Positions 225 through 59,181 of a stretch of 64,000 nt of DNA are shown in pieces. The first letter of the stretch is position 1; every line of letters starts with the position of its first letter. The position numbers and the translations under genes are program-made. The stretch spans positions 16,813,035 through 16,877,034 of the forward strand of contig OY848918.1 of NCBI GenBank assembly GCA_963693285.1, written 5' to 3'. This stretch comes from Xestospongia muta (taxonomy: Eukaryota > Porifera > Demospongiae > Haplosclerida > Petrosiidae). A model generated the notes under the pieces. It saw only the letters and a list, made by a program, of their open reading frames with translations. It was not told the origin of the DNA and made no database searches.

Positions 225-2086
<1,862 letters not shown>

Positions 2087-2238
2087 CTGAAAAGGAACAG
2101 TCACTATTACATCTACATGTCATTATACATTCCTTCAATTTTTGAAGTAACAATGCATATCAATAGGCAATGTACAAATCCCTGTAGTTGTGTACTATAT
2201 TATAATGTACCCTATTGATGTCTTTTGTATTAGCATAC

Positions 2239-5064: not shown

Positions 5065-5528
<464 letters not shown>

Positions 5529-7320: not shown

Positions 7321-7354
<34 letters not shown>

Positions 7355-11115: not shown

Positions 11116-11168
<53 letters not shown>

Positions 11169-11386
11169 CCTCTCTTTCCCACATTCACTGATACACACAC
11201 TCATTATCACTAGAGAATATCAAATAGGACTATTCCTAAGATATGTTATAACATCAAGTAAGATATGTTATAACAGTTGAACTAACTGTTGAAACGTTTG
11301 GTGAATAAAAATGAAATATTTGGTTGGTGGATATTATAACGTCAATTAATCGAATTGACATTATAATTAATGTATTTAGTATTTGA
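10150..11386. other. gene-free stretch
   Basis: This holds the upstream flank shared with 4322-5190, a CT microsatellite, and many short TACATGTA palindromes at 10200-10265. I see no supported exon in it. Confidence 0.6.
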
Positions 11387-23276: not shown

Positions 23277-24759
23277 CCAGTGATGTTGCACTGCTGACAG
23301 AAGATCCATCCTGTATCCATGGTAATTGTCGTGATGGGTCAATATCTGCTGTTAAGCGAGCATCTCTGCAACAAGTAACGATTTCTTTATCTTCATCTGG
23401 ACGACAAAGATGATTAGGGACAAGTGGACATATTCAGCATAGGAAACGTTCCTGAGGTATGGAGAGAACCGGTTTATACTGGAATTTCGTTACGACATCT
23501 CCAGTGCATTCGAGAATGGCTTGTCTGAGAGCTGAACATTTTACACTGCGGCCAGTGTAATATATCTCCAACCAATAAATGGAGTCGACTAGTAAAACTT
23601 TTCTGTGCTAGTCCAATTTTCAAGCACTCACTCTTACTGACAACCATTGACTCAGTAGTTTTCTGAAGATCCTGTAACTCTAGTTGAAACAGGAACCATC
23701 GTGCTGGAATTTCTGCTTCGATGTAAGACTGGCATACAATTCTGCGAATAGTATCTGCAATCTTCTTTTCATGCTCATCTCTGGCAGTTGCATTAACAGG
23801 GAATATTATTTGCTTTTCAGTTTCGCAATAATTTACACGCACATCGCTAAACTGCTTTAATGTAGACCACAAACGAACATTCTTTTGCTCCAGAGACTCA
23901 CCCACGCATCCATTACTTTATCAAAAAATGTGCCAAGAACAAGAAGGGAAGGCTTAGGATGTGAAAACTTAACGTGAATTTTGCGCAAGTCAGGCTGATC
24001 TATGGATGCTAGCGAACGGAAGGAAGACTCAAGTAGTTGTAAGTTGGTTAATCTGTCTCTCCACTGGTATGCCAAGTTGTTGACCTTTGAAGCTAAAATA
24101 GAATTTAGGTTGGTCATCAAGCTTCTCATTTAGCTTTTGTGTAAGTATATTGACTGGATTATAACGTAGCAATGACGGAGCTATGTCCAGGAATGCTGCT
24201 TGTCCACCAGAGTCAATACAGTGTATCCAGTGGGTGTTATTAAGATCAGGTGACTCATCTACAATAGGTAAGACTTTCACTATCTCATTAGCAACTGCTG
24301 AAACAGGTTGAGGAAGTGACTTGAGAGAAGGAACTGAGGTGTCTTCATTAGATTGTGGTTTATCCATTGATGAAGAAGAATCTTGTGATCCATCATCATC
24401 AGATGATGACTCACTCTCATCATTATGAAGTATAATGGATTCAGATGAAGTAGACTGGAGCCCACTTTTTACTGTCTTAGCAAGCATGTCTTTGAAATAT
24501 GACCGATCTACTTTGCCCCAAAAGTGGGTGCTGGATGAAGTGGATCTAGATCCAGTAATAAGACTGGTGGTCTCTACCTTTCTTATCTCAGGAGCAGTAG
24601 TCACAGGAGTACTATCGTGATTCTCTGGAGGTGGTTTATCTAGCAAAAGGTTCATAACAGATGACTTCCCTGTTCCTGGAGCTCCTGACATTGCCAACAT
24701 TGAGTATTTTGCTGTAATTTTTCCTTCATCAAGAGCTTTGTCAAGCAACTTAGAATAAT
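23277..24759 (-). pseudogene. Roc-COR exon of the left-arm gene with four lesions
   Basis: The exon opens DYSKLLDKALDEGKI, then Walker A GAPGTGKSS, a Ser/Asp-rich insert and the G3 motif DSGGQAAFLDI. Compared with 52300-54378: (1) one extra base near 24045 brings TGA into frame at 24029-24031; (2) one missing base near 23915 restores the frame; (3) about 600 bp of COR are absent at a junction near 23605, where KIGLAQ joins directly to VLLVDSIYWLEIYY; (4) TGA at 23434-23436 falls inside the conserved CxxC. The donor at 23276 is intact. Confidence 0.85.
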
Positions 24760-25637: not shown

Positions 25638-26585
25638 CTTTTTTGGCTTCTTCAATCAAATGTAATATAGTAGCTCTGTTCTTGTCATAAAGTTTAACTT
25701 TGTCTGCAGCTGTTCTACCTTTATTGTTCTTAATGGTAGCATCAGCTCCATTTGATAAGAGTAATTTGATGCATTCCATTTCACCCTCAGAGCATGCGTC
25801 ATGTAATGGGGTGTCACCATACTATATAATGAAATAATATCACATATCATAAACATTGAAAAGTTAATTAAATATATTGATATATTATAAATATAATAAT
25901 GTCAGTGTTTACTAATAACTCATTTATTAATTTACACAATAATCATACATATATATGAAAACATAGGACATGTCCTTCCAGTCATATTATCATTATGTTA
26001 TGAACACAAAGTATCTACTCATTACATCAAGTATATTATAACTATGTATAATTACTGATATTAACTATGTTATCTCATAGAACATGATGTGTTGTTTACT
26101 AATGTTGGATATTTATACCTCATAACTGCTCAATGAGGAAACTTGTTTGGTAAATAGGGTATGCAGAGAAGACTATATCATTAAAGCCATTAGAATTATC
26201 AACTCAATGATATTATTATATCTGATATACAGTAAATAAACATAATTAGAGTAATTGTTGTCAGGTAAATTTCTTATTATCAATCTTAGGTTATCACTTA
26301 ACATATGCTTTTACTCTAACTAGCTTCATGTTCATAACTTACACATTACTACCATAATATAATGTGTTCAAATGAAAACATTACATGACAATTGATGATG
26401 ATGTGTACAAAAGTTATAATATCTATGACAACATTCTTTATACATAATTAAAATCCATTATCAATTATTACATAAATGGAGTGTCAAAAACAATAAAACT
26501 GATAATAAGAGCTATGTGACGAAAAATACAAAAAATGATACATAACACACAAACAAATTTTAAGAGAATGTTTGCATATTAATAG

Positions 26586-26700: not shown

Positions 26701-27224
26701 TCATTTCAATGCAACCTCTTGTTTGAAATTCGTTTGCATGTTAGGTACAATTTCATATTTATGGTCACATATTAATATGTCTCAGGTGTATCTTTCACAG
26801 TACAAAATACAATGCTTATTGAATACAAAATACAGTCATGTATAATAATGACAATATGCTTAATAATGAAGATACTTACATAGTTAATGGGGTCCAGTGA
26901 TGCACCAGACTTTATTAGCACATCAGCTACATCATTGCGGCCTTTGGCAGCAGCATAATGAAGGGGAGTATCATTGTCCTACATAAAGTAGATATCATTA
27001 TTTATGATCATTTCACTTCATAATATATAGCTACAACTAATGGTACAATATAAAGGGTAGGTAAAATAATTCAATGTTTATAAACTAATGTGTATAGAGA
27101 GGTTGATAATTTATGTGATGTCAGCAGTAGTATTCATGATAACTAGCTATGATATGTTTGGAAATTAAAATGTCATATTATGACACATACATATCTTTTA
27201 CCTAGAGATTTACAAAGTTGTAGA

Positions 27225-27805
27225 TTGTTGAATTTTGTTTGTTATTTGATTTATTCTTGTTGATAATAATAATAATAAAATTTATCAAAACAATGTTATG
27301 TTAGTGGAAGTTTGGTTTATAGAAAAATGTCGACATTCTATATAAGAAACAATTTTTACAACACATAATTGGTTGTACTTGATGATAGATCATACTGTGG
27401 ATAAATTCATATTTTCATGTTTTGTGATTAGAACAGTAATTAAATGAAAATTTCACAACTTTTATAGCTTTAATACTTATTAATCAAAAGGATGTACTCT
27501 ACAAACCATAACTGTATTCTTGAGGTAATCAAGGAGTAAGCTAGGACTAATGTGGTAAGACTTTTTGTGAACAAAACATGGAGAAATAATATATACTGTC
27601 ATGATAGCAATGTAAGTACATATCTTAATATCAGAGATCACATTCTATATAATACCCTATTTTGTTGGCTGGTTGTTATTGGCAACACTTAATTTCTCAG
27701 TCAGTTTTAAGTAGGTTCATTTATTATTCACAGTATGTATTGCTGATATATAGTATCAATAATTATTAAGGAAATTATATCATATAAAGACTTTATTGAT
27801 TAGGG
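27225..27805. repeat. direct repeat within the left-arm intron, copy 1
   Basis: About 580 bp match 30390-30985 in the same orientation. The right arm has only one equivalent (about 41,890-42,480, inverted). The left arm therefore carries about 2.8 kb (27,215-30,040) that the right arm lacks. Confidence 0.8.
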
Positions 27806-30389
27806 AAGTAAGAAAGAAGTCCACAATGTCAAATAAATAATAGCAATTACCAAATGGTACCCAAAGTGATACACTTTCCTATTTGATTAATAAGAGTTTT
27901 AATAGCAAAAGAAAGATCAAATTGTATTTGTTCTGCATTTGGAATAGAGGGGAGGGGTCTGTAGATGTAATCAAAATAAAAAGTATTGCTGAGAAGCCAA
28001 ACAAACATGTCAAGACATTGTAAGGTAGTTGTTATAAAGAGAAACATAATGGCCCTACTTTTTAACATAATTTATTAATAATTTCTATAAAATGAATGCA
28101 TTCTTCTTGATGATTTAATGCATAATTAACGATATGCTGCATTAAGAATTTGTGTTTGAGGCATGTTTTACATTTGTAGCCATAACATAGTCAATTGTGT
28201 AATATGTGATGTCTCTGTACAAGCTAAGACACTTCAAACACACTATGAGACTATATGACATGACATGATCCAGTCTTGTGATCTATACTGTAAGCTCATG
28301 TAAATATGAACAATTAAACCACAATTTAGTTGTTTTGTCATATACTCTTTGACAAGAAAGAAAGATTTTCACAACGCTTAGAGCCTTTGTGATCACTTAA
28401 TAAGGATCTGTACTCAAAGCATAATCCATCCAATTAAAGTTTAGTTAATTGTAAGTTTGTTAGTATAACAGATTAATCTAAACAATCAACAGTCAGTACT
28501 TAGTTGTTTTACAATATTACTGAATTGTCATTGACATAGATATGACTAATTAAGAGACAAAAGACACACAAAGAATTTTGATAATTTGTTATAAACATTC
28601 TTTATGTTTTGTGACTTTGTTTGTTTCTGTATGTGTTAATTCATTATATGATATACTTGTCTTAATATAAAATACAAAATAAGTTGTAATATATATGTGA
28701 TAAATAACACTGTGAACAAATAGTACAATGGTTTGATTAAAAAAGACTATGTAGCAAATGTCTAAATATCTAGTCATACTATCAGTACAGAGGAAGAGGT
28801 ATAGTCATTTAACTTATATAGGTTTGGGACAGTCCTAGACTTTCAGAATGCTTTTGAATATATATAAAGTAGGTTTTGCTTACCGTGGCATGCTGTCATT
28901 GTTTGATTTTCTCTTTTTACTAATTATATATACATGTTGGGAGTGTCACAGAATGTTTAATCTCCACCCAAAAAATCTAATACTCAAATTGTCTAATCCC
29001 AATATGTCTAATCCCAAAATATCTATAGAATGTACTAACTGAACAAAGAGTCTAACCTCAATAAGCTGCAATAAACAGAGATTTACATATAGCACAAATT
29101 TAAATTATGTCTGACTTTCCACTAGTTTATTGCAGTCTCTTGACGTACAATTTTCAGGCACTATTCTCCATGTATGTTACTTCCACTTGGTACAGAGCTT
29201 ATGGAGAAAAAGTACAGAACATTGGTCTAATATAAAATTACATGAAAGCATATTTTATTAGACGCTTGATTCAAAAGACAGCAGCTATAACATTTGTGCT
29301 ACTAAACTTTGTATGAATAGCTTGGAATGCTATAACAGCAGATATACCAGATGATGATTGAGTGAAAGCATTTGATGAATATTTTGAAAACATTTGAATA
29401 AAGAGCTAATTCACACTAAGAATGTTGAATTATTTAATTATAAAGGTCTATGCATTCGAACATACAATATTTATAGTTGCCACAAAAACTTATCCTACAT
29501 CTTCTAACTTTTAAAATTATTCCAGAGAAAGCAGGCAACTAGATAAATAACAATTAGTATATTGGAAGCAGATGAATCAGAGAGCTAACAGAAAGAAGGT
29601 TATGAAAACAGAGGAAAAAATGCAACTTTTACAATCAGAACTAACCAGTGGTGAGAGGACCTTAGACTCATATATATATGGTAATAGTCATTGTGTACTT
29701 TCTATTGAGAACTGAGATATGTGCCATTTCGAAAGTATTTGATGCGAACAATAGCGAACGTTTTTGTAACAGCTTCTGATGTCTAAAAGAGGCTTCCCTG
29801 TTTTACAATTAAACTGGATGGGGCTCTGTATGGAACCTTCCTCAAATAAAGGGTTTAATCAAGTTAGCAATAAGGAAGCTACTAAGAAATCTTATCACGA
29901 CCGCATAATCTAACCATAGTTATTTGACAGTTGGTGAAGGTATGTAATTATTGTAAATATGGACCTGAATAGGTTGAAGGTATTGTTATTAAGGAAAGTG
30001 GAAGTCTGAGATTTGTGGTTAAAATGGCTAATGGTATAATAGCTAAATATGATAGGAATTAAGTATACACAATATCAGGTGTTAAATGAAAAGGAAGACT
30101 AATTATTATCAATATATATCAGGTAACCTACACTATCTAATAATATGAGTATTGACATCATTTTGTTACATTCATTCTATTGTTAGTTCTCTTTTATTCC
30201 ACATAACACTATGTAAGCAAAAATGCATGTTTAAATTTTATGCAACAAACCTGACTATTAAATGTTAAAGTATACTCAAGTATGCAATATCATATTTGTC
30301 TGCACAAGCTAAGGCACTTCAAATAGACTATGAGGCTATAGGACAAGTGATCTACATGACTTGCATAACATATATTATAAAAATTATAA

Positions 30390-30985
30390 AATGTTGTAGA
30401 TTGTTGAATTTTGTTTGTTATTTGATTTATTCTTGTTGATAATAAAGAAATAAATTTATCAAAACAATGACATAATGTTAGTGAAAGCTTGGTTCATAGA
30501 AAAATGTCCACAATGTGTACAAGAAGTAATTTTTAACAACACGCGCTTGCTTGTAGTTGATGATAGATCATATTGTGGATAAATTCATATTTTCATGTTT
30601 TGTGATTAGAACAGTAGATAAATGAAAATCTCACAACTTTTATAGCTTTAATACTTATTAATCAAAAGGATGTACTCTACAAAACATAACTGTATTCTTG
30701 AGGTAATCAAGGAGTAAGCTGGCACTAATGTGGTAAGACTTTTTGTGTAGAAAACATGAACAAATAATATATACTCTCATGATAGCAATATAAAGTACAT
30801 ATCTTATTATCAGAGATCACATTCTATATAATGCCCTTTTTTGTTGGCTGGTTGTTATTGGCAACATTTAATTTATCAGTCAGTTTTAAGTGGGTTTATT
30901 TATTATTCATAGTATGTATTGCTGATGTATAGTATCAATAATTATTAAGGAAATTATATCATATAAAGACTTTATTGATTAGGGA
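30390..30985. repeat. direct repeat within the left-arm intron, copy 2
   Basis: This copy is colinear with the right arm. The sequence between the two copies (27,810-30,040) has weak coding-like fragments, but nothing I can name. Confidence 0.8.
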
Positions 30986-32305
30986 AGTAAGAAGACTCTA
31001 TTAACAACATGTACAAGCCATCAAACAATGACATTGATTAGACTTTTGACTTAGTGACTATCATAGTTAGCTTTTATTATCTGATGACAACAATGAAGGT
31101 AGTGCAACATACATTACAAACTACTGGTACATCGTACTTATAGACTGAGTGTAAAAACATTACCATGTATTGGAATCTACAACTTAGCATATAGAAGTTT
31201 TGTTATATTATTTCTTTGTCAAAATGGACTCTGTACAGGTTGGTTGAGTTACTAGAGTAACTATTACATAACAATCTAACATTGTACAACAGGACTTGTT
31301 GACTCCACCCACACAGAAATATACAGTACTTGGAATACCATATTTGTCACATGACTTGTCAACACAGACTCTTTATATATAATTTTAAGTGTACACTGTG
31401 CTTGTTTCTGTGAAAATTCATGTATTCTATTCCTTAAAATTTGTGTTAATTACTTCATATTACTTACAGTTTAAACATATATTGGAATGTAATCTCCACC
31501 ATAACTTTATAATCATGAATGTTTTAAGGAGTTCTGTTTATATAGTGTTAGAATGATGACAACAAGTTGTTGAATGTATTTATTTATAATATAATATCAA
31601 TACATATAAAGATCTATTAGACCATATGTTTGTGATTTCACTGATCCACTATTAAACACATGAAATCAATATATTCATCAGTGGACATTAAAAGTGATGA
31701 TTCTTTGTTACTATCACTCATAAAAAGCATTTGTTATATATAGTACAAAAGGTTTCCATATTTCCTGAGTCAACCAGTAATGTGTAATAAATGGGAATGC
31801 ATTCAAGACTACTTTGTTTATATTTATTAAGGTTTCCATTATTCATAAGTCCAATGTTCCACTGTACTGATACTGATAGACTTACATGTACTTAATATGA
31901 CATTTGTCATGTTATTTGGCAAAACTACACATGTTGTGCTAAAAATTTTGAATAAACTGTTGTGTATATGTGGTTGCTATGAGGCCATTTTGTACATGAT
32001 TTTTAACAATTTTGGTTACTAAGTACTTTTATGATTGGTCTTCCTGGATACCAAGTATGATATACATCTAGTACAATATGCATGTATGAAATGATTCGTT
32101 TTGAAACTATTTAGAGGAACATGAGTGATTTTCCCAAATTAGGTCACATTTATTATATTCTCCAAATTCCTATGATTGGTTTATAATTATAAGGTTTGCT
32201 ACAATTAATTATTACTATTTTACTTAATTATTACATTACAATGTAAAAGAGAGTAGTCTATTGTACAATGTACATTGCACAAGAGTTGTTGTCTTCATGT
32301 AGATA

Positions 32306-32902: not shown

Positions 32903-35680
32903 TATTATGTAACAGACAAACACAAACATTGAAGTATAAAGACTTGACAATATCAACCACTAAACATATTATAAACTAAAACAAGTAACTTGTTTTATAA
33001 GATCCTCATAACTTAACTTTGTACTAAATTATAATCATAATATGAGGTACTAATAAGTTTAAATTACAATATTAAACACTAACCTGATCTAGTGCATGTA
33101 TATTGGACTTGTTTTTAATTAGTATTTCTGCTATTTCAGCATTAGATGCCCAGTGTAATGCTGTTCGACCACTCTGAAAAAGAAGAAATATAAAGTTAAT
33201 ACTAGATAACTAACAGTATACTATACATTGTACATAAACAAGTACTATCATAACATGTGGTCAATATCAGTGGAGGTTCGTGTTGTTTATTCTCTCTTAT
33301 GACTATTATTAGTAGCTCATATCATGTCATGTCAATGTAGTACATTCAACAAACACTATATTATGAGCTACAAAACTAACATGTTTAGGAAAGACTACTA
33401 ATACATGTGTAAAAATATGGTGAAAACAAGTCTGAATTAATGATGATAAAACCTCATACAATAATACAAAGGTTGATATCAACTATATATGAGTTACAAA
33501 TGTCATAATATAACATATTACTACAAGTATATTGTGTACAAGTATGTCATGTGTTCTTTTCTAAAACAATCTCTTTATCAAAGAAGATATTATTTCAAAA
33601 GTTATTACAAAGGTAAATAAAGCTGTCATGTGGACATGCAGCCACTAGAGTAGGCTTCTACTATAATCAGAAACATTCTTGCCAATGAAAGGACATCATA
33701 ATCAATATGGATGCAGGACCAGGGCTATTGATACTACTCCCAAGGGTGTAAAGGTAAAAAGGATTGAAGGTAGAAATCCTCCCAAACGTGGTCATAGTAA
33801 TGACTTTGCCTTGTCGCCAATGAAGTATTGTGAAAAGGATCAAATAAATATAAAGAGAACAACGATAATTCTTACAAATCATATTATAGTCAAAAAACCA
33901 ATGACAATATGACTGAAGAGCTTATATACTAAAGTATATACATCAACTGACACCATAGTAACAATGAACAGTAACAAGGACACACTAATTAAATATAAAC
34001 AATAAAAAAAGACAACAAAGAAAACAGACTAGGAACCAATCGTCCAATATGGTATATGTACAGAATTATTGTACAAGTCAAATGACATAATACATCATAT
34101 AAAATATCTTATTTGCTCATAGAGATGTAATAATGACACTAAATTTTAGAATACCATTCAAAAATTTAAACATTATTACATGACATATTACATTTATACA
34201 GTTCACATGTATACATATACATGTACATGTACAATGTATACATATATACATTACAACAGTATTGTTACTGTATATGAACACTTACATTACTAGTGGAATT
34301 AGGATTGGCATGGTTTTGCAAAAGAAATGACACAACTTTAGCATGTCCATTTTGAGATGCTATCATCAGTGGTGTATACTGGAACTATATAAGAGTAGAT
34401 GACAATGTTTATTATTAACAAATGATACTTTCAATAAAGGAAATATTGTCACAATCTATTTAATTAGTAAAATTATTTTAAATATCACAATAGTATCAGT
34501 ACTATTAGTATATTAATTAAATATTAGTTGTTGTTAATAAACTATATTGGTCATACTCAGGTAATGAATAATTTGTTAGTGTTATTACAAATGTATACTT
34601 CACATTACATATCTTATGATCAACTTACAAGATTAGTTACATTACTTGACAGAACATGTCACTGTAAAAACTGTCTAATAATAGTGACTATAATTTTGGG
34701 ACTAATAGCATTACATTCTGATTACTGAAATATCAATGAAAATTGTACTCTCTGTCACTATGTTTAAAAGTAAATAAAACTATTTTCATACTATATCTAG
34801 GACTCTATGATGTGTCTACTGATAAGTTCTCTACTTACAAGATCAAAACAACCATGGTCATCTAGTTGTCTAATAGCTGATGACTCTTTAGTTGTTACTA
34901 AGACATATTGATATAATATTCAATTCATTGTTGTATTATATAAATTACTTATTTTGTTGTGATCTTTAGTATTGATTGTCTAGGCAAAAATAAAGTCCAT
35001 TATATCCTTTATCAACTAATACCTCTCTAACTAAGAGACTTGTAACATTATTTAACACAAGAGATATGTACGAAAGTTTATTAAGCAATTGTCTATGGCT
35101 GTATGGAGGATAATAGAGAACCTTTTCAGAGGCAGTTCTAGGAATGGTGTTAGGGGGGAACTGTAAGTTTAGGACCATGCCCTTTATTTTGTGCATGTGC
35201 AATTTAGTAACAGTGGTATTAGATTATAGCTCAACCAACATCATACTATAATGATGATACAGTGTGTAGTGATGTGATAATTATTGGATCTTAGACTTAT
35301 TTATAAAAACACACTGTATATGAAAAATAGGCTTTACTGTTGAGATATATACTTAAATATTGAGAGCTAGTAACTTACCCAGTTTGGAATATGATAGTTT
35401 ACATCACCACCTTGTTCAATAGTAGATTTGACTTCTTCAATGTTTCCAAGTCTAGCTGCCCAGAACAGCTGTTCATTCTATTATAAAGACAACATGTATC
35501 ATGTAGTGTAGTATAGTGAGTATACAGATCAGCCCTTATAACTAAAAGATCATCTTTTAGAAAGATACTCTGTCTATACAATAACACTGATATGTGAGTT
35601 TAGTTACTATCACAGTGATATATAGGGATAATGACATAGTAATAGATAGATTATAGACTTACTAGATCATGCTGAGACAT

Positions 35681-36810
35681 TTTGAAAAGTGTAGGCTCTT
35701 AGTTGGTCACTGTTCCTATGTCAGGTGTCTATAGACAATATAGGAAGTAGGTTACATAGATAGTAATAACTATATACTACATTGGAATGAGGAAACTCTA
35801 CTAACTAAATCAACTGTAACCTAATTATAGTAAGATAGAATATACTGTCTGTCTACTAACTACTACTATATGTAATAGATATACACTCACACTATGTATG
35901 TACTGTACACTATATGATATCATTGGATACTAATAATATTCAACGCTTTAGTAGTAGAATAGAATATCAAAGTAATATACTAACCTGTTCTTGTCTTCAG
36001 TGTGTAACTGCGTTTGCTTAGAGGTTGTTTATGGCAACTTTTAACCACGCCTACTGATTAGTGTGTGGGGACATCCGGTTTTGAGGCTGGGTGGTTTTAA
36101 CCATGCATGTGGAGAAGACAAATATTAATATGTTAAGGATTCGTTTGACTGTATTACTAATTCAATCAAACTATGACTCAGTAGACAAACATTAAGTACA
36201 ACTGTGTTATTGACCTATAACCTAGTAAGTTACTTCATCAACTGTAATATCATATATGTGGGTATGTTCATTTAATATTGTTCACTTGTATTGTTGTGTT
36301 NNNNNNNNNNNNNNNNNNNNNNNNNNNNNNNNNNNNNNNNNNNNNNNNNNNNNNNNNNNNNNNNNNNNNNNNNNNNNNNNNNNNNNNNNNNNNNNNNNNN
36401 NNNNNNNNNNNNNNNNNNNNNNNNNNNNNNNNNNNNNNNNNNNNNNNNNNNNNNNNNNNNNNNNNNNNNNNNNNNNNNNNNNNNNNNNNNNNNNNNNNNN
36501 AGGTTAGTATATTACTTTGATATTCTATTCTACTACTATATAAAGCGTTGAATATTATTAGTATCCAATGATATCATATAGTGTACAGTACATACATAGT
36601 GTGAGTGTATATCTATTACATATAGTAGTAGTTAGTAGACAGACAGTATATTCTATCTTACTATAATTAGGTTACAGTTGATTTAGTTAGTAGAGTTTCC
36701 TCATTCCAATGTAGTATATAGTTATTACTATCTATGTAACCTACTACTTATATTATCTATAGACACCTGACATAGGAACAGTGACCAACTAAGAACCTAC
36801 ACTTTTCAAA
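35681..36810. promoter_or_regulatory. presumed shared promoter region between the head-to-head genes
   Basis: The two start codons (35680 minus, 36811 plus) face away from each other. The last ~300 bp before each start are nearly identical in the two arms, so both genes probably use the same kind of promoter. 35988-36300 is unpaired sequence with no mirror copy, followed by the gap. No TATA box or other element is clear. This is an inference from layout. Confidence 0.4.
36301..36500. other. assembly gap, 200 N
   Basis: Exactly 200 N, probably a placeholder of unknown true length. The right arm of the inverted repeat begins at the very first base after it. The symmetric junction is therefore not read through, and the orientation of the two arms depends on scaffolding. 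Confidence 0.98.
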
Positions 36811-39800
36811 ATGGCTCAGGATGATCTAGTAAGTCTATAATCTTTCTATTACTATGTCATTATCCCTATATATCACTGTGATACTAACTAAACTCACATA
36901 TCAGTGTTATTGTATAGACAGTATATCTTTCTAAAAGATGGTCTTTTAGTTATAAGGGCTGATCTGTATACTCACTATACTACACTACATGATACATGTT
37001 GTCTTTATAATAGAATCACCAACTGTACTTGGCAGCTAATGATGGAAACATTGAAGTAGTCAAATCTACTATTGAACAAGGTGCTGATGTAAACTATCAT
37101 AAACCAAACTATGTAAGTTACTAGCTCTCAATATTTAAGTATATATCTCAACAGTAAAGCCTATTTTTCATATACAGTGTGTTTTTATAAATAAGTCTAA
37201 GATCCAATAATTATCACATCACTACACACTGTATCATCATTATAGTATGATGTTGGTTGAGCTATAATCTAATACCACTGTTACTAAATTGCACATGCAC
37301 AAAATAAAGGGCGTGGTCCTAAACTTACAGCTCCCCCCTAACACCATTCCTAGAACTGCCTCTGAAAATGTTCTCTATTACCCACCATACAGCCATAGAC
37401 AATTGCTTAATAAATTTTCGTACATATCTCTTGTGTTAAATAATGTTACAAGTCTCTTAGTTAGAGAGGTATTAGTTGATAAAGGATATAATGGACTTTA
37501 TTTTTGCCTAGACAATCAATACTAAAGATCACAACAAAATAAGTAATTTACATAACACAACAATGAATTGAATATTATATCAATATGTCTTAGTAACAAC
37601 TAAAGAGTCATCAACTATTAGACAACTAGATGACCATGGTTGTTTTGATCTTCTAAGTAGAGATCTTATCAGTAGACACATCATAGAGTCCTAGATATAG
37701 TATGAAAATAGTTTTATTTACTTTTAAACATAGTGACAGAGAGTACAATTTTCATTGATATTTCAGTAATCAGAATGTAATGCTATTAGTCCCCAAAATT
37801 ATAGCCACTATTATCAGACAGTTTTTACAGTGACATGTTCTGTCAAGTAATGTAACTAATCTTGTAAGTTGATCATAAGATACGTAATGTGAAGTATACA
37901 TTTGTAATAACACTAATTAATTATTCATTACCTGAGTATGACCAATATAGTTTATTAACAACAACTAATATTTCATTGATATACTAATAGTACTGATACT
38001 ATTGTGATATTTAAAATAATTTTACTAATTAAATAGATTGTGACAATATTTCCTTTATTGAAAGTATCATTTGTTAATAATAAACATTGTCATCTACTCT
38101 TATATAGTTCCAGAATACACCACTGATTAAGGCATCTCAAAATGGACATGCTAAAGTTGTGTCATTTCTTTTGCAAAACCATGCCAGTCCTAATTCCACT
38201 AATTATGTAAGTGTTCATATATTGTAACAATACTGTTGTAATGTATATATGTATACATTGTACATGTACATGTATATGTATACATGTAAACTGTATAAAT
38301 GTAATATGTCATGTAATAATGTTTATATTTTTGAATGGTATTCTAAAATTTAGTGACATTATTACATCTCTATGAGCAAATAAGATATTTTATATGATGT
38401 ATTATGTCATGTGACTTGTACAATAATTCTGTACATATACCATATTGGACGATTGGACTAGTCTGTTTTCTTTGTTGTCTTTCTTATTGTTTAAATTTAA
38501 TTAGTGTGTCCTTGTTACTGTTCATTGTTACTATGGTGTCAGTTGATGTATATACTTTAGTATATAAGCTCTTCAGTCATATTGTCATTGGTTTTTTGAC
38601 TATAATATGATTTGTAAGAATTATCGTTGTTCTCTTTATATTTATTTGATCCTTTTCACAATACTTCATTGGCGACAAGGCAAAGTCATTACTATGACCA
38701 CGTTTGGGAGGATTTCTACCTTCAATCCTTTTTACCTTTACACCCTTGGGAGTAGTATCAATAGCCCTGGTCCTGCATCCATATTGATTATGATGTCCTT
38801 TCATTGGCAAGAATGTTTCTGATTATAATAGAAGCCTACTCTAGTGGCTGGATGTCCACATGACAGCTTTATTTACCTTTCTAATAACTTTTGAAATAAT
38901 ATCTTCTTTGATAAAGAGATTGTTTTAGAAAAGAACACATGACATACTTGTACACAATATACTTGTAGTAATATGTTATATTATGACATTTGTAACTCAT
39001 ATATAGTTGATATCAACCTTTGTATTATTGTATGAGGTTTTATCATCATTAATTCAGACTTGGTTTCACCATATATTTACACATGTATTAGTAGTCTTTC
39101 CTAAACATGTTAGTTTTGTAGCTCATTATATAGTGTTTGTTGAATATACTACATTGACATGACATGATATGAGCTACTAATAATAGTCATAAGAGAGAAT
39201 AAACAACACGAACCTCCACTGATATTGACCACATGTTATGATAGTACTTGTTTATGTACAATGTATAGTATACTGTTAGTTATCTAGTATTAACTTTATA
39301 TTTCTTCTTTTTCAGACTGGTCGAACAGCATTACACTGGGCATCTAATGCTGAAATAGCAGAAATACTAATTAAAAACAAGTCCAATATACATGCACTAG
39401 AGAAGGTTAGTGTTTAATATTGTAATTTAAACTTATTAGTACCTCATATTATGATTATAATTTAGTACAAAGTTAAGTTATGATGATCTTATAAAACAAG
39501 TTACTTGTTTTAGTTTATAATATGTTTAGTGGTTGATATTGTCAAGTCTTTATACTTCAATGTTTGTGTTTGTCTGTTACATAATACCGTAGTTCCCCGA
39601 GCAAGCGCCCAACTCTATGCAAGCACCCACCCCCCTATTTATGTCCTTAAATGAAAATGTCAATTCCCCATGCAAGCACCCACCCCCATCCCACCCTCTT
39701 AGATTTGTGGTTATTGTGGTTATTATCACATGTTGAGCAAAGAGAAATGTTAGGCTAGCAATTTGCTAAGTTTAGATATTTCAGTTTTGTTGTCTTTTGT

Positions 39801-42800
39801 TCTGTTTGGAATTGAAAAGGTCAGCTCACAAGGCATTTCTAAACAATCTTGCTTAATGGAGGATCTTCTTTTGTCCTTGACTGTACAGTGTATCATTATT
39901 GTGAGTCAAGAAGCTTGTCAAACTGCTTATCCCATTCTCTAATATGCTTTTTGTCTACATCATACTTCTTTGCTATAGCAGATACATTGCACTCCAGGTG
40001 AGTTCTCAGAGCATTGACAGCTTCCACTTCTACACCATGCATATGGAATAGTCATGTAAATTAATTATTCATAAGTTGGTGCTTACTACAAACTTTTTTT
40101 TGAAAAATCACGTGTAAGCGCTCACTCCTTTCAAATTCCAAATGAACTGTAACTGCCCATGGGTGCTTACTCGGGGAACTACGGTATCTACATGAAGACA
40201 ACAACTCTTGTGTATTGTACATTGTACAATAGACTACTCTCTTTTACATTGTAATGTAATAATTAAGTAAAATAGTAATAATTAATTATAGCAAACCTTA
40301 TAATTATAAATCAATCATAGGAATTTGGAGAATATAATAAATGTGACCTAATTTGGGAAAATCACACATGTTCCTCTAAATAGTTTCAAAACGAATCATT
40401 TTATACATACATATTGTACTAGATGTATACCATAATTGGTATCCAGGAAGACCAATCATAAAAGAACTTAGTAACCAAAATTGTTAAAAATCATGTACAA
40501 AAAGGCCGCATAGCAACCACATATACACAACAGTTTATTCAAAAGTTTTAGCACAACATGTGTAGTTTTGCCAAATAACATGACAAATGTCATATTAAGT
40601 ACATGTAAGTCTATAAGTATCAGTACAGTGGAACATTGGACTTATGAATAATGGAAACCTTACTAATAAAAACAAATAGTGTGGTCTAAAATGAATTCCT
40701 ATTTAATACACATTACTTGTTGACTCAGAAAATATGGAAACCTTTTGTATTATATATAATGAATGGTTTTTATGAGTGATAGTAGCAAAGAGTCATCACT
40801 TTTAATATCCAGTTTAGTGTTGCCATGATATATAAAAATCTATATCACATATCATGGATATTTATATCACGATATGTCACATATCATGATAAATTTTGAA
40901 ATTTTTATATTTGTAATAAATCAACAATTCTCGAACAGAAAAATTAACTGGTCTGCATGTTGTGGTGTTAAACAGTTTCTTTTTTCAGTAATTACATTAC
41001 CAGTGGTACTGAACAGGTGTTATGATGGAACACATGTAGCGACAAATGAAAAAAAAATTACGCATGATTCTACTCACGAGCCTATTTAAATAGGTGTGTT
41101 TTATATCAATAAAAAGTAATTTATATCGTGACTGTTTATACCGCGATATATCAATATTATCAATTATTGCGGCAGCACTAATCCAGTTAATGAATATATT
41201 GATTTCATGTGTTTAATAATAGATTAGTGAAATCACAAACATATAGTCTAATAGATCTTTATATGTATTGATATTATATTATAAAAAAATTCACTCAACA
41301 ACTTGTTGTCATAATTCTAACACTATATAAACAGAACTCCTTAAAACATTCATGATTATAAAGTTATGGTGGAGATTACATTCCAATATATGTTTAAACT
41401 GTAAGTAATATGAAGTAATTAACATAAATTATAAGGAATAAAATACATGAATTTTCACAGAAACAAGTACAGTATACATTTAGATTATACATTTAGAATA
41501 TAAATAGTCTGTGTTGACAAGTTATGTGATAAGTATGCTTTTCAAAGTACTGTATATTTCTGTGTGGGTGGAGTCAACAAGTCCTGTTGTACAATGTTAG
41601 AATGTTATGTAACTGTTACTCTAGTAACACAACCAACCTGTACAGAGTCTATGTTGACAAAAAAATAATAATAACAAAGTTTCTATATGTTAAGAAATAG
41701 TTTCCAATACTTGGCAGTGTTTTTATACTCAGTCTATAAGTATGATGTACCAGTGGTTTGTAATGTATGCTGTACTATCTTCATTGTTGTTATCAGATAA
41801 TAAAAGCTAACTATGAGAGTCACTAAGTCAAAAGTCTAATCAATGTCATTGTTTAATTGCTGGTACATGTTGTTAATAGAGTCTTCTTACTTCCCTAATC
41901 AATAAAGTCTTTATAGAATATAATTTCCTTAATAATTATTGATACTATATATCAACAAATACATACTGTGAATAATAAATGACATACTTAAAACTGACTG
42001 AGAAATTAAATGTTGCCAATAACAACCAGCCAACAAAATAGGGCATTATATAGAATGTGATCTCTGATAATAAGATATGTACTTTACATTGCTATCATGA
42101 GAGTATATATTATTTGTTCATGTTTTCTACACAAACATCTTACCACATTAGTCCCAGCTTACTCCTTGATTACCTCAAGAATACAGTTATGGTTTGTAGA
42201 GTACATCCTTTTGATTAATAAGTATTAAAGCTATAAAAGTTGTGACATTTTCATTTATCTACTGTTCTAATACAAAACATGAAAATATGAATTTATCCAC
42301 AATATGATCTATCATCAAGTACAAGCAAGCACCTGTTGTAAAAAATTATTTCTTGTACACAATGTGGACATTTTTCTATAAATCAAGCTTCCACTAACAT
42401 AACATTGTTTAAGTAAATTTATTACTATTATTATCAACAAGAATAAATCAAATAACAAACAAAATTCAACAATCTACAACTTTTTATAATTTTTTATAAT
42501 GTATGTTATGCAAGTCATGTAGATCACTTGTCCTATAGCCTCATAGTCTATTTGAAGTGCCTTAGCTTGTGCAGACAAGTATGATATTACATACTTGAGT
42601 ATACTTTAACATTTAATTGTCAGGTTTGTTGCATAAAATTTAAACATGCATTTTTGCTTACATAGTGTTATGTGGAGTAATAGAGAACTAACAATAGAAT
42701 GAATGTAATGAAATGATGCCAATACTCATATTATTAGATAGTGTAGGTTACCTGATATATATTGATAATAATTAGTCTTCCTTTTCATTTAACACCTGAT

Positions 42801-45800
42801 ATTGTGTATACTTAATTCCTATCATATTTAGCTATTATACAGCTATTGTATTATACTAGTTATAACTTGTTAATAATCTAAATTTTATGGAGCATGTACT
42901 TAGCAAATCACTTACTGTCATATATTGTATTATGAGACTGTATTGTAAATCTATAGGTAAAAGATATGTGACATAATATGACAAACATTTTAATTTCCAA
43001 ACATATCATAGCTAGTTATCATGAATACTACTGCTGACATCACATAAATTATCAACCTCTCTATACACATTAGTTTATAAACATTGAATTATTTTACCTA
43101 CCCTTTATAATGTACCATTAGTTGTAGTTATATATTATAAAGTGAATTGATCATAAATACTGATATCTACTTTATGTAGGACAATAATACTCCCCTTCAT
43201 TGGGCTGCTGGCAAGGGCCGCAATGATGTAGCTGATGTGCTAATAAAGTCTGGTGCATCACTGGATGCCATTAACAAAGTAAGTGTCTTCATTATTAAAC
43301 ATGTTGTCATTATTATGCATGACTGTATTTTGTATGTAATGTTGTTATTAATTCATGTAATTATGTAGTCATTTGTTGTTTTGTCACCTCATATAACTTT
43401 ATATATGGATTACACAAGACATAAAATCAAAATCATTCTAAATTATTGAGCATGTGGAAAGCAAAACCACACACAACATATATGTGACATACCTTCCACT
43501 TTAACCAATACATAACTAGAATACATTGCAACATTAATAAGAATCGTTGTGGATGATTATGCACTTTTTGAGCATGGAGTTCTCTATGGTATCATAGGCA
43601 TTAATTGATTCTATGAGAAAACAGTATTCATGATGATTATGAACTAGTTGAGGATAACGACGGTCGCTGGAATTCAGTACAATATCAACTGATTCCATGA
43701 GAAACAATATTGTCAACTTCTTTATATTTCTCTAGTAACAACTTAACTTTACCTTTGCATGACGTAAACCAAACTTTAAAGGCAGAGCCTATAGGTCCGA
43801 TAATCAGACTCGTTATTTTCCAACAATTGGTCTGGCAATCGAAACCACGCCTCAAAAAGTAAAACCACACCCACTCAATAAACATTTTTAATGATAAATG
43901 AACTGTAATCATAGATACTGCAATGAAGTGTCACAACTTATCAGTAATGATATAACAAGTTCGACAGTACATATATTTTCATCTAAACAGGAGCAGGAAA
44001 TTGTTTCTGGACTGACTTCAGCATTGTCTTCATTAATAAGAGAACCTTTAATTTCAGAATCAACAACATTGGCATCAACAAACCACTTCAAAATAACTAA
44101 GATATTTACTAATAAGTATGCTGTGTAATGAAGTACTTATTTTTCTTTTTTAGTGGGCATTTTCTTCATAAAAGGTATAGGCTTACCATGATTCTGACAT
44201 TTCCTTGGTAGACCTACAACAGTTAACCTTTGGCCTTCCACACTTCTTCAGTCTTGGTGGAATCATGATTGTAGCCAAACCTGTATGTATCACCATTGTC
44301 TTGTTCAAGTAAAAGCACCTCTTACCATTTAAGCATTCATTAGTATAAAATTTGTCTGATCCATCTTGATCTATTAAATTCATTGTTTCCCATTACATGG
44401 GTGGGCCCATGCGGGCAGGCAGATTCAATTAGTTAATAATGTGGTGTTCATTATTGTTTATTTTTTCGCATTCTGGCAACGTTATTACATACCACAGCAT
44501 TGATTTTTAATCACAATTGAGACTTGACCTCTAATGGTGGCTTACTGTCAGAAATCCATCCCAAATTCTTGGAGTTCGTCAATGAATCAATTTTAATGCC
44601 CACATCATTTAACAAAACAGAACAAACACCACTGAACAACAGAAGAGAGAATGACAGGACAAAATTTTACTGTACAAAAGAAGGAGCATACAAATAAACA
44701 TACAACAGAAGGAAATGAGAATAAGAGATTCAAGGAATGTTAATATTTGGAGTTCATCCAGCCAGAGAATGTAATTGTACAACAGAGAATAACTATACAA
44801 CAGAAGGAACACATGAAAATGAGTATATGTATAAGAGAGCCAAAGAATGCATTTATTGTACAACACAGGGAACATAAGAAAAGGTACATTGTATAAGAAA
44901 GAGTCAGAGAATGATATTGACCACAACAAAAGGAACATTTACAGAAGTAAAAAGTATAAGCGAGATAGGAGGAGAAAAAGAAATGTATTATGTACTTCAG
45001 TACATTAAAATTATTTCTTTTTGGTAAACAAACGAATTCTTTTGATACTGGTAACGAGCGTAACAGGAAAACATGACGATGGCCATCAATGTACCAAAAT
45101 GTCTGCACAGCAACCGAACAAGCTTAGTACCAGATGTATCTACCTCATCAGCATTGAACTTCAGCCCTTTTGATGTAATGAAACTTATGATGTCATTGTA
45201 TAATTTGTCCTTTCGATTCCTTTCTGTGATTGGCTGTAAACTGGAGTCAGGTGGTTGATGCTCCTGGAGATACATTTGTCAGGCGGAGTCCATTGAAACA
45301 TCAAAAGCATTGACTGTTGACTCACGTGAGACAGACGTTGTTGTACTTTCAGTTTTCCCATTCACACATACACAATACTTTTAAAACCTGCCAAAAGATG
45401 ATATGACAGGCTGAATGAGCAATGCTGAATCAACAGGGTCCAAAGAGTCCTTCTAAGGTCCAACATTCGATGACAATAGTTCGTAAATATGAGGTGACGA
45501 CCCAGGTATTTTCGGCCGTATTACAGAGGTGAAGAAATCTAGAAACGTATACTCAAGTTCTGGGATTTGAGTAATCATCCAGGGTATCAGCATTCTCTTA
45601 AAAGACGGCAGAAAAACCGAAACATTGGCAAAATCAGCCATTATATTTAAACAAAAATAATGAACAAAACCTAATAATGAAGCGGCAGGCCATGTCACGC
45701 AGGTGGGTAATGGGAAACAATGAATTTAATTGGAATGGCCTTATCATCAGTTAAATAAACTTATTTCCAGCTGGACATTGCTGCTTTATGGTACTAAATA

Positions 45801-48800: not shown

Positions 48801-51800
48801 TTAAAATAAGAACAGATAGAGAACAAAACTACTCAAGCCAACAAAGGAAGTCTGACCATTATTTGGAGAATCAGAAGGAGTTCTAGCCATTACCTGAGGT
48901 ATCGAATGTTTATTCTCTACATTTAATGTAACTACTCATACTAAAGAAGGATGTCTGGCCTTTATCTGGGGAATCAAAGCTCATTCTTTACCTTGATCTC
49001 AACTACTCAAGATTAGAAAAGGAAGTCTGGCCATTTTCTATGGAATCAAAAGTTCATTTTCTACCTCAAACTCAACTACTCAACTCTAGAGAAAGCATTG
49101 TGGCCATTATCTGGGGAATCAAAGTTCATTCTTTACCTCTAACTCAATTACTCAACCCTAAAGAAAGAAGTATCTGCGGAATTAAAAGTTCATTTAGTAC
49201 TTTCAAAATACTACTCAGCCCTAAAGAAGGAAGTCAGAAGTTCATTCTTTACCTCGAATACAATTACTCAACTCTAGAAGGAAGTCTGACCATTACCTGG
49301 AGAATAAAAATCAATCTATACTTCTAACGCAACTACTCAACCCTAGAAGGAATTTTGAAAAAAATATTATCATGAATACCACTGCTGACAACACATAGAG
49401 TAATAACCTCTCTATATACATTAGTGAAATAATATTGAGTTATTTTACCTATCCTTTGTAATGTATCATTAGATGTAGCTGTATATTCTATAGTCAATTG
49501 ATCATAAATACTGACATATCTTTTATGTAGTTCAAGAGAACTCCTCTTAACTGGGCTGCTTACTGGGGCAATTCTGAAACAGCTCATATACTTATTAAAG
49601 CTGGTGCATCACTGGATCCTATTGACAAAGTAAGTATTTCCATTATTTAAATATGTTGTTATTATTATTCATGACTGTATTTTGTATGTAATGTTGTTAT
49701 TAATACATGTAATTATGTAGATATTTGTGGTTTAATCATCTCCTATAAGTTCTTATATGAACATTCCTAAAATAACTACACAGATGAAAGTGATTATTGT
49801 AATAGCTAATGCTAACACAAGATGACATAATGACTACAAAAACTAAAGTGCCAATTTATTCCCTTAGAAGGTGATGCCTACTTTAATTACTTTACTAGCA
49901 AGTCAGCTGAATATTGGGAGAACTTTGACAGATTTTCTATCCATAGAACAAATTGATTTTGGTTGCAATAGATATACAAGTAGTACCTTCATTTATTATA
50001 AACATTTGAAGGTTAATTCAAGCAAGCTTTAATAGTTACAGTTAGACAAAATTTACAGTATAGGCTATGTCACAGATTTATAACATCAGGATATTCCTAA
50101 TGATTATTGTTATCACATATTCATCACATCTGCCAACTAAGGGATATAATTGAAATATGTTTGCTAGTGTCAGATATTATAAGGAAATCATTGCTTCAAT
50201 GTATAGTATAGTACTAATGTGTTTATAATTGTGTATCTACTTGTTGTTTTATCATCTAACATTGATTGTTTTATCATGTAAGCAATATTAACAAACTAAA
50301 AATAATAAATACTCTATCAACTCTGATTATTAACTGTGCTTATAATATAATCATTATTACATCTGTTGTTTGTTTAGCTGAAAGCTCTTTACTCTAGTTA
50401 TATAGGTCTTGGTAAAATCGAACAATCATAAAGAGTTATGTTGAGATACCTTTAGTGCTTTTTATGTCTCTAACAATCAGTGATATAGTAGACTATGTTA
50501 TCATTATTGTATTATAGTGTGCTTTAACAATGCTATGAACTTAAACATTGGTTGTCTGCTGGTATTACAACATTTGTAGTTTCTGAATTCAACTTGCTGC
50601 TAATCACAGAGACAGTAAGTAGCTTTGGGTTCTAAAAGTGCAAAAGCCTTCATTGAGAAGCAGATTTGCAAAACTAAGTAAAAAGATAAAACAATGACAG
50701 CATACCACTTGAGGTCTGTCTATTTGTTTATGTACATTCAACTACTACCTATTATTACAACATATGAGGTGCTAATAATACCATATATAAGCTAAAATGA
50801 CATTACCTAACATATGTCACAATATAAACAACATGTCTATACAACCCTAGCACTAACTATAATTAGAGTCAGTGTCATCACTATGTTTATTCCATGATAT
50901 AAATTAAATGTTTTGACATTCTAAGTGATAGCATAGAGAATGTACAAGGATACTGTTTATTACTTGCAGAAATATGCTCTGATATTTACATTGAGAGAAT
51001 AATTAGACTTGTATAATAGATTCTTCAGTTTGTTAGTGACTTCTTACAACATGACATATGAGTGAATCTTTACAAACTACTGCTTGTATTAATCCTAACA
51101 TTTTATATAACTATACTGGCATCTTTGTTGTGATGATTATTGATTTGTCCTGCTAGTGGTCAGCATAATCAACAGTAGACATCACTTACAAAGTAGTTCA
51201 CTCAGTATTGTCACTACCAGATCTTTAGTGTGTTAATTTAATTTATTTTATGGTACACACCTTAGTAGCATTATACTATATACATTCCTGTAAATAGTTT
51301 ACATTGAATGTTTAATCTACAATAAATTATGCACTTCCTTTAAGTCTAGTATTTTACAGTATTTGTGTGAAAACTGTATGCATTACAATTTTAAAGATGT
51401 TTTTGAATCCCCTTCCCACTATTATTCAAGCTCTATCATAAGATATGTTTATTATAGATGTTCATCTTATAATTTCTTTTATCACATAGGATGGACTTAG
51501 CCCCTTACATGATGCCTGCTGTAAAGGGAATGTAAAATGTGTTGAAATATTACTGATATGTGGTGCAGATGCAACCATAAAGAATAATAAGGGCCAAACA
51601 CCTGCTGACATGGTAAAACCTGATGATGTCAATAAAGAGAAAATTCTACAACTAATTGACAAGTCACTACATGGTCAGTGTATAGTTCTATACTAATGTA
51701 GTTCATTGTTATTTTCTGTACATTAGAATGTACTTACAATAAATGTCAATACAGTGATAATAATGTAACCTAGTAACATGATGTATACTGCTAGTAATAA

Positions 51801-57388: not shown

Positions 57389-57671
57389 CTCTATATAACC
57401 TGGAAATCTGAGGGCAGTGATGATGATTTACCATTGTCAACCTGTGATGCTATTTCCCTGACAACTGACATTCATGGTAAGGGATACAATTCTTTTGGCA
57501 ACTACAATTCGTACTTATTTAGACAGCTATTTCAAACTGGTTTCAGAAGCTGTGATACTGTTAGGCTAAACAGAAAAGGAATACCTGAATGGTTATAAAA
57601 GAAAAGAAATGGTGAAATGACAACATACTACAATGAAATGGATTGATAAGAAAGTTGTGGCTAGCTTTTTT
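57389..57671 (+). pseudogene. piggyBac transposase remnant joined to a COR fragment
   Basis: LTTDIHGKGYNSFGNYNS, LFRQLFQTGFRSCDTVRLN and RKGIPEW followed by GEMTTYYNE match the middle of piggyBac transposase. The DNFY aspartate is absent (GNYNS). There is a stop after PEWL and a one-base shift before KWIDKKVVASFF. That last piece runs in frame into the COR homology. Confidence 0.7.
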
Positions 57672-59181
57672 ACTAGTGACGATGATATCTTCATTATTGC
57701 TCCTTTACCAGGGAAAGGCAAGTTCTATTTACCCTGTGTTTTACCTACTACTTCTAACTTGGAGAATATAAGAAGCTCCTTCGTAATGTCACAGATGCTC
57801 TTGTTTTAACATGGGATATGAAGCCTGTACCTCAAGGAATCTTTCCTGCTCTAGCTGTTAATCTTGTTAAGCGACAAAAGTCACCAAAATTTGATCTTTA
57901 TCGACCTCAAACATCAGAGGGGCCATCAGAGGAACTACTACAATATCGTAATGCTATCCAGTTACTGTGCCTTGATTTAGGAGGAGGAGTTTTGCTTATT
58001 AATGCTATCTACTCTGAAGATATCTACTACAGCATCCTTTCAGAAAATTGCTCAGCTTTTCGAAATGCTGTTGTCAAAGGCATTGGAGATATTGTTAAAA
58101 AGTTTCAGTATATGTCAATTCTTTCATCACCTCAGGAACATTTCTATTGCTCAATATGTTCTTCTTCCAATCATTTTTGTCGTCCAGATGACAAAAAGAA
58201 GATACTAACTTGTTGTAGAAATCCTCAATTAATAGCAGATATTGATCCTTTACGACAATTACCTTGGATTACACAGGGTGTGGCAGTAGGGAAACTACAA
58301 TTACAAGGTTAGTATTTACTTACTTGAACTTTTGTGTAGAAATATTCTGCTGAAGGCTAAGTTATGTTTGCATTAACTTACCTGCATACCTAAAAATGCA
58401 TTTATATGTAAAATATTATACCACCTGTCAAGAAGGAATTATGAAATTGTTGTGAATGCAAACATGTCATTTGTCCTGATGAAAACATGAGAAACAGTAA
58501 TTCATTTAGATAACCATTATTCAAATATTGCAATAAAACCAATCAAGAGTCCTTTGCAGAAAAATATAAACAATGTGACAGAATATCAATATAGAGCCAT
58601 GCTTTCATGTAGCTATATAGCACCTTATCAACTGTTACCTCTTTTACTAAGAGATTATTAACAATATGTTCTTACTGTATGTAGCTATTAATTATGTTTG
58701 CTCCTTTTGTTTTATTAATACTTTCATAGACAACAAACCAGAGAAGCATAAACTCCTCAGGCTTCTTTCTTCAGTAAATCCAAAGTAGCAAGAGATAGGA
58801 GATCTACTTGGAGTTGACCCTAACACTATTGAGGGGTTGTATCATTCTACTTACTCTGACCAAGTGAAGATGTCAAAGATGCTGCAAAGTTGGTTGGATA
58901 ATGAGCCTACTCCAGCAACTTGGGATAATATCATTGATGTCATAGATGGTCCTCTACAAAATAAATCACTTGCCAATGAAATTTGTCAATATCTTAGCAA
59001 AGACTCAAGTATGTTATTAATATATATTACAACAATATGCTAGTACATGTGATTTTAAGTAAAAATAATCTGTTTAAAAAATAAATTGTTTTAGTACTAT
59101 CTTAGCACTTCAATTTTGTGCATTATAATTTCCATAATGTCTCATATTATTACAGATACACCTCCTAGCAGTACTACATAA
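57672..59181 (+). pseudogene. third COR/death-domain copy, broken
   Basis: Exons 57672-58307, 58730-59008 and 59156-59181. The first starts DDDIFIIAPLPGKGKFYLP, like COR in the right-arm gene (53,755 on), shifts frame near 57,780, then continues to the cysteine motif (CSIC...FCRPD...TCC). The second is a death domain (EIGDLLGVDPNTIEGLYHS, LQSWLDNEPTPATWDNII); TAG at 58786-58788 replaces the expected tryptophan of NPKW-QEIG. The last exon encodes TPPSSTT and stop. The 5' half (ankyrin, GTPase) is missing, with a piggyBac remnant in its place. The exon 8 donor of the right-arm gene has the right phase to splice onto this death domain. Confidence 0.8.

Follow-up and report, generated by a model that had tools for sequence, protein, structure and literature searches.

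The closest described system to the genes treated here is that of the leucine-rich repeat (LRR)-ROCO genes of brown algae, which are built with one exon per repeat, have been proposed to act as immune receptors (PMC11378527, citing Zambounis et al. 2012) and, in the passages of that source concerned with selection, show positively selected sites on the concave face under the M1/M2 and M7/M8 models. The DNA considered here is a 64,000-nucleotide stretch of chromosome 2 of the sponge Xestospongia muta (contig OY848918.1, positions 16,813,035 to 16,877,034; hereafter, the window), which most likely contains two genes from a large array whose members encode N-terminal ankyrin (ANK) repeats and a Roc-COR (Roco) part. 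These occupy two arms, with a left gene on the minus strand and a right gene on the plus strand, in which a start-codon exon (e0) is followed by the ankyrin exons e1 to e4, each encoding one repeat in phase 0 within 90–99 nt and bordered by AG and GT. As in the algal genes, in so far as those passages of PMC11378527 describe them, a Roc-COR partner, one exon per repeat and apparent selection on the binding face come together; however, the algal genes have 72-nt phase-2 LRR exons, tandem exon arrays and alternative splicing (PMC11378527, same passages), whereas the sponge genes are those of an animal and exist as many whole-gene copies. Assignment to the brown-algal type itself was rejected, since the repeat exons encode ankyrin and not LRR units and differ in both length and phase.

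Fungal ANK-NLRs, including Podospora Pa_3_8560, provide a second parallel, with five positively selected ANK positions that lie, with one exception, in the inner helices and the beta-hairpin, and for which non-self recognition has been proposed (PMC4986451, in the part on these genes). The sponge genes share with them, as portrayed there, selected sites within ANK repeats, but the fungal genes have a NACHT/NB-ARC switch and repeat-number polymorphism inside one gene (PMC4986451, same part), whereas the sponge genes have a Roc-COR part, few repeats per gene and diversity between genes. Moreover, DAPK1, LRRK1 and LRRK2 carry the Roc-COR tandem, with ankyrin repeats N-terminal to it in LRRK1 and LRRK2 (PMC6337361, in the section on domain layout); unlike in these proteins, no kinase, LRR or death domain was found in Pfam scans of the sponge ankyrin part and Roco frame, to which the scans were confined. 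Among the papers listed in literature searches, no earlier description of such an ANK-Roco array was found, and the words ankyrin, Roco and immune are absent from the main text of the X. muta genome note (PMC12398682).

We consider, with a probability of about 0.7, that the array is of a recognition type, composed of ANK-Roco genes with a uniform scaffold and a selected hypervariable face and shaped by exchange and duplication. The ankyrin stack would be a ligand-binding sensor and the Roc-COR part, like that of known Roco proteins, a GTP-controlled switch, a division of roles suggested by comparison with Roco proteins and with receptors built of repeats. New specificities could arise as genes duplicate, paralogues swap short stretches and selection favours altered binding faces. 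In a less certain step, the ligands would be non-self, namely microbes, symbionts or tissue of other individuals, which would be consistent with an arms-race, immune or self/non-self role. Sponges host dense microbial communities. They also tell self from non-self tissue (PMC5450542, in its treatment of this point). A large array in which the scaffold is conserved and the hypervariable face is under selection would be a concrete candidate for recognition, in which the codons involved can be named, and, if this is true, the ROCO-based repertoire of brown algae would have an animal counterpart in which ankyrin exons replace LRR exons. It is a far more tentative idea, and a rather doubtful one, that the array on chromosome 2 constitutes a repertoire of natural receptors of DARPin-like kind (DARPins being designed ankyrin repeat proteins), carried in the germline, in which many ANK-Roco genes have one scaffold in common and a face remade by exchange and selection, possibly used in graft self/non-self or symbiont discrimination. 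The varied partners could instead be endogenous, for example in adhesion or development, and human Roco proteins do work in cell signalling (PMC6337361, section cited above); nevertheless, many copies, a uniform scaffold and a diversified face would be the usual signs of a recognition repertoire, and we regard endogenous partners as unlikely.

Evidence for selection on the ankyrin exons

A 4.3-kb query from one arm gave at least 75 matches (75 obtained from the best 40 of 724 candidates) between 15.99 and 18.72 Mb of chromosome 2, the long ones being 91–97% identical in this 5' region of the genes and the short ones down to 84%. Single-exon searches returned at least 40 places each (the best 40 of 170 candidates for e4, of 66 for e3 and of 139 for e1); among the places listed, e1 reaches 21.0 Mb and one e4 place lies on C3. 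Exon copies were read, in the primary assembly of one individual, only from matches of at least 200 nt, giving 12 copies of e1, 18 of e2, 26 of e3 and 18 of e4 (74 in all), and represent part of the array, as the exon searches list further places. None of these 74 copies contains a stop and all keep intact AG/GT borders. For e1, the copy at 18709666, with a 6-nt in-frame deletion, was excluded from codon counts (11/12 used), and two more were excluded for missing flank, leaving nine in the flank comparison and site models; for e2, one partial copy and one without flank were dropped (17/18 in the flank comparison and site models); three e4'-type copies and one without flank were excluded from e4 (14/18 used); and two of the 26 e3 copies are identical, so that 25 unique ones entered exon-only trees and simulated nulls.

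Pairwise diversity in 30-nt bins rises sharply inside the exons. In e3 (26 rows), it is 0.015 before the exon, 0.186, 0.026 and 0.101 inside, and 0.020 after it. The corresponding values are 0.043 before, 0.194, 0.234, 0.107 and 0.366 inside, and 0.042 after e2, and 0.055 before, 0.147, 0.168, 0.031 and 0.109 inside, and 0.052 after e4. For e1, a diversity of 0.000 precedes 0.237, 0.023, 0.068 and 0.309 (last 9 nt) inside, and the bin after the exon gives 0.095 with all nine rows and 0.029 without two rows of another flank type. Where values for 'good rows' were taken, the rows omitted upstream and downstream, respectively, were 1/10 and 2/9 for e1, 5/18 and 1/18 for e2, and 1/15 and 2/14 for e4.

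Site tests were performed with our own implementation of the M1a and M2a models, using FastTree topologies with scaled branch lengths. A class of codons with omega above 1 is preferred in all four exons across the paralogues under both choices of tree, which upholds the diversifying selection put forward by the first-pass annotation of the window. Twice the log-likelihood difference amounts to 47.6 (e1), 20.5 (e2), 92.6 (e3) and 78.2 (e4) with exon-plus-flank trees and to 32.8, 25.7, 77.5 and 41.3, respectively, with exon-only trees; thus, the signal is strongest in e3, e4 and e1, and weaker in e2. The null sets for e3 (32 simulated without positive selection, in 16 of which tip labels were permuted separately for five blocks) reach a maximum of 16.8, as against 74.3 observed. 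The ratio of non-synonymous to synonymous divergence (dN/dS) over whole exons is 2.30 for e1, 0.53 for e2, 1.29 for e3 and 1.08 for e4, and is modest because most codons are conserved; the values of e2 and e4 led us to discard the whole-exon ratio as proof of selection. The conserved codon class has an omega of 0.06–0.23 in e2, e3 and e4. This is difficult to reconcile with relaxed constraint, in which duplicates would be decaying and their exons drifting. The left Roco part is indeed disrupted and internal stops are found in 22 of the 59 Roco matches on chromosome 2; however, the ankyrin copies are uniformly stop-free with intact borders and drift by itself cannot outpace the intron rate, which makes this explanation hardly credible.

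The variable sites are not spread over the structural core, in agreement with the first-pass annotation, and sit at predicted ligand-face positions of the repeat. With T of TPLH numbered 6, in an alignment to the repeat numbering made in this analysis, diversity is highest at positions 1, 2, 3, 5, 10, 13 and 14, and at an extra residue in e1; position 33, which the earlier list included, varies little (0.19). In DARPin libraries, the randomised positions (2, 3, 5, 13, 14 and 33) lie on the concave surface. The variable positions 2, 3, 5, 13 and 14 coincide with this randomised set, and mean amino-acid diversity is 0.607 at the 21 DARPin-type positions versus 0.163 at the remaining 108 (p = 5e-5, the lowest value attainable in a permutation test with 20,000 shuffles); DARPins are engineered, whereas the sponge genes also vary at positions 1 and 10 and vary little at 33.

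Where two copies share a residue at one of the 22 variable codons, the codon is identical as well in 696 of 715 pairs; at 13 of the 22, a single third-position base accounts for at least 80%. These shared codons and dominant third bases point to selection on residues and not to indiscriminate local mutation. A mutation-generating process aimed at the variable codons, such as adenine-directed copying or somatic hypermutation, would fit the small number of codons changed and the 55% of A at their second position, but synonymous differences are rare (19/715 same-amino-acid pairs, a number that shared descent also lowers) and A-rich neighbouring codons in e3 are invariant, so that we hold it to be highly improbable. 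Adenine-directed mutagenesis was set aside, and a diversity-generating retroelement is argued against from the codon pattern only, no template or enzyme having been looked for.

The two arms had been the starting point of the first-pass annotation, and its exon counts were re-derived exactly: 135 codons with 25 amino-acid differences and 3 silent codons, 15 of 99 bases in e1 (its exon 2) and 7 of 99 in e2 (its exon 3), where six codons differ and every one is replacing. There are 36 nucleotide differences in e0–e4, including 3/90 bases in e3 and 9/99 in e4. Its intron counts of 0/67 and 6/240 also stand, and the 185-base stretch has five differences where about four had been counted. Aligned intron and 5' flank parts of the arms differ at 106 of 4283 positions (2.5% overall, with single pieces between 1.3% and 7.0%), non-synonymous changes at 32 of 315 sites and synonymous ones at 4 of 90. 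The claim that exons outpace introns is therefore borne out for non-synonymous changes (Fisher p = 3.7e-10), while synonymous and intron rates do not differ significantly (p = 0.29). The dN/dS of 2.39 exceeds 1, as predicted, without reaching significance (p = 0.14), and the two arms by themselves do not prove diversifying selection.

Exchange between paralogues and its bearing on the tests

Several observations weigh against a recognition-type array under selection. Past about 60–90 nt, some flanks diverge strongly and the near introns alone are almost uniform, with all-row flank maxima of 0.27 (e1 downstream), 0.23 (e2 upstream), 0.35 (e3 downstream, 181–210) and 0.42 (e4 downstream). When dN is divided by the divergence of 150-nt flanks, the expected excess of exons over introns extends across paralogues for e1, e2 and e3 (1.50, 2.01 and 4.06) and fails for e4 (0.96). 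Silent diversity in e2, e3 and e4 exceeds the diversity of the introns close by, and segregating sites at codon position 2 of e3 (7/30) are no denser than in the flanks (35/136 and 39/148); a few e3 codons are saturated, not the whole exon. The likelihood test is liberal, since 5 of 32 e3 nulls exceed 5.99, and the nominal p-values are therefore too small; nulls were computed for e3 only, and e2 does not lie far above their maximum. The fit for e1 is unstable (omega0 0.997 or 0.000). A test of the pairwise homoplasy index (PHI) type indicates recombination in e1 (p 0.006), e2 (0.001) and e4 (0.016), which weakens tree-based tests, and gives no recombination signal in e3 (p 0.72). Only 15 of 26 e3 copies have a scored Roco match in the 25 kb downstream of them, and the left Roco part is disrupted, its examined frame being interrupted by six stops and its second piece by one.

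The exon differences could alternatively have come from older, divergent paralogues through gene conversion or exon shuffling, with weak or absent selection on amino acids. Diversity at conserved four-fold silent sites is 0 in e1, 0.164 in e2, 0.089 in e3 and 0.105 in e4, and dS over 150-nt flank divergence is 0.65, 3.77, 3.16 and 0.88, respectively; the raised silent diversity of e2–e4 implies that exchange between paralogues contributes. In e2, core types are recognisable and dS (0.34) is far above the divergence of the downstream intron (0.032). Exon and flank distances show no significant correlation in e1, e3 and e4, e2 correlating upstream (r 0.35, p 0.001), and incompatible site pairs are commoner inside exons than inside introns in all four exons. 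Together with the PHI-type result, the distances indicate that variants are exchanged also in pieces between paralogues. Nevertheless, the introns on the two sides of an exon are for the most part uncorrelated with each other too, so that exchange is not special to exons; e1 shows no diversity in 400 pairwise cells at conserved four-fold sites, yet has a dN/dS above 2; the codons that vary are restricted to positions of the ligand face; and block-reshuffled e3 nulls do not approach the observed value. We therefore assign conversion without appreciable selection a low probability. Uniform near introns beside diverse exons might reflect conversion combined with selection against exon homogenisation, which is a guess.

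An assembly artefact, in which the arms would be two alleles of a single locus or wrongly joined copies of it, also deserves mention. The window (16.813–16.877 Mb) falls within the region from 16.1 to 18.9 Mb of chromosome 2 for which the genome note, in its remarks on the assembly, gives contig order as unknown (PMC12398682), and the inverted repeat has a gap of 200 N at its centre; consequently, the head-to-head arrangement is not secure, and the palindrome was not relied on as a biological feature. Haplotype copies are possible among the other loci. However, the Roco exons of the arms differ with a dS of about 1.5 over 243 codons and the exon pattern recurs across the array, so that an artefact would affect the palindrome and not the divergence pattern, and we deem it very unlikely as an explanation of the latter.

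Roco part and gene structure

The ankyrin exons of the left gene lead after e4 to e5 and a Roc-COR region, and those of the right gene to e4', e5 and a frame of 733 codons (Table 1). At all four loci inspected, both the donor of e5 and the acceptor of the Roco exon are in phase 1; the matching phases link ANK and Roco parts and support a single transcript, as far as sequence can indicate. The span of 33084–39405 delimited by the first-pass annotation holds e0–e3, and both genes extend beyond its ends. In e0, codons 2, 4 and 5 are variable among nine full copies, one of which has a small insertion, and the flanks are similar.

Table 1. Positions of gene parts and associated features in the window.
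Feature	Position	Strand	Remark
Right gene e0	36811-36828	+	start-codon exon MAQDDL
Right gene e1, first ankyrin repeat, hypervariable	37014-37112	+	
Right gene e2, ankyrin repeat, hypervariable	38108-38206	+	
Right gene e3, ankyrin repeat, 90 nt, hypervariable	39316-39405	+	
Right gene e4, ankyrin repeat, hypervariable	43180-43278	+	
Right gene e4', second e4-like ankyrin exon	49531-49629	+	e4' type at two further loci
Right gene e5, last ankyrin exon	51490-51673	+	phase-1 donor
Right gene Roc-COR (Roco) open frame, 733 codons	52300-54467	+	phase-1 acceptor in front
Left gene e0	35663-35680	-	MSQHDL
Left gene e1	35379-35477	-	
Left gene e2	34286-34384	-	
Left gene e3	33084-33173	-	
Left gene e4	26880-26978	-	
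Left gene e5, last ankyrin exon	25638-25821	-	phase-1 donor
Left gene Roc-COR region, disrupted	23287-24759	-	several in-frame stops; part of right protein unmatched
Assembly gap, 200 N	36301-36500		midpoint of inverted repeat
Insert with terminal inverted repeats	39587-40184	+	intron 3' of e3; mirrored in left arm

The right open reading frame (ORF) has no Pfam match at E 0.001. Among seven homologues scanned, two (P0089 and P0091, 53% identical) score above the COR-A cut-off, a third falls just below it and four give no match; P0002, P0003 and P0004 bear a precomputed PF16095 label, yet show no COR-A match on scanning. The predicted model of the right Roco has a mean pLDDT of 50.3, with about 60–88 in the COR part, and Foldseek with this low-confidence model retrieves LRRK1 and the C. 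tepidum Roc-COR (E 7e-6 to 8e-5, TM about 0.25–0.38, weak coverage). From these matches and this model, the right frame appears to encode a Roco protein, as judged by its COR domain. The Roc region contains a P-loop-like GAPGTGKSS, lies in a low-confidence part of the model and has a Roc Pfam match only at E 0.23 in one of seven relatives. Neither NACHT nor NB-ARC is found among Pfam matches of the ORF or its seven relatives up to E 1, and AAA-type matches are weak and below cut-off; NLR identity was rejected on these scans and on the fold search, which gives Roco. In the left gene, residues 392–593 of the right protein are unmatched between the two Roco pieces, and the left copy may have become a pseudogene or code for a truncated protein.

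A total of 61 Roco matches were scored, 59 of them on chromosome 2, where 37 of 59 lack an internal stop. Between 15.9 and 18.8 Mb, two Roco types occur together, 14 like the right gene (at least 79%) and 21 at 66–68%. The arms are 97% alike in their 5' part, yet carry Roco exons of different types, which indicates that the sensor and Roco parts have different histories. Three left-type Roco exons give dN/dS values of 0.22, 0.36 and 0.79 (250 codons; the left one is disrupted further on). A third, partial Roco-like piece is located 3' of the right gene (57666-58309, plus strand) and is 49–67% identical to its Roco. Many long open ankyrin frames of about 550–2770 codons are clustered on C3 and C14, and are probably a separate ankyrin family. 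Matches to Wnt occur at three loci of the genome, in keeping with an animal.

The insert located after e3 and its mirror in the left arm have the terminal inverted repeats CCGTAGTTCCCCGAG; it is carried by 15 of 26 gene copies and serves as a presence/absence marker for exchange between paralogues. The stretch 40811-41190 of the right arm is missing in the left arm and in several copies, and present in others. In the left arm, about 2.2 kb (27815-30034) is unmatched in the right arm and flanked by two near-copies of one sequence (27353-27814 and 30531-30993). Direct duplications are found at the left end of the window (2014-3784 and 6173-7958; 4364-5252 and 10311-11189), with identities mostly of 91–97% and one piece at 83%. 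An ORF at 13484-13972 (plus strand) matches a DDE transposase (Pfam DDE_Tnp_1_7), another at 63519-63995 (minus strand) was judged by eye to be retroelement reverse transcriptase-like, and long GA/TC simple repeats lie at 1788-1914 and 5160-5316.

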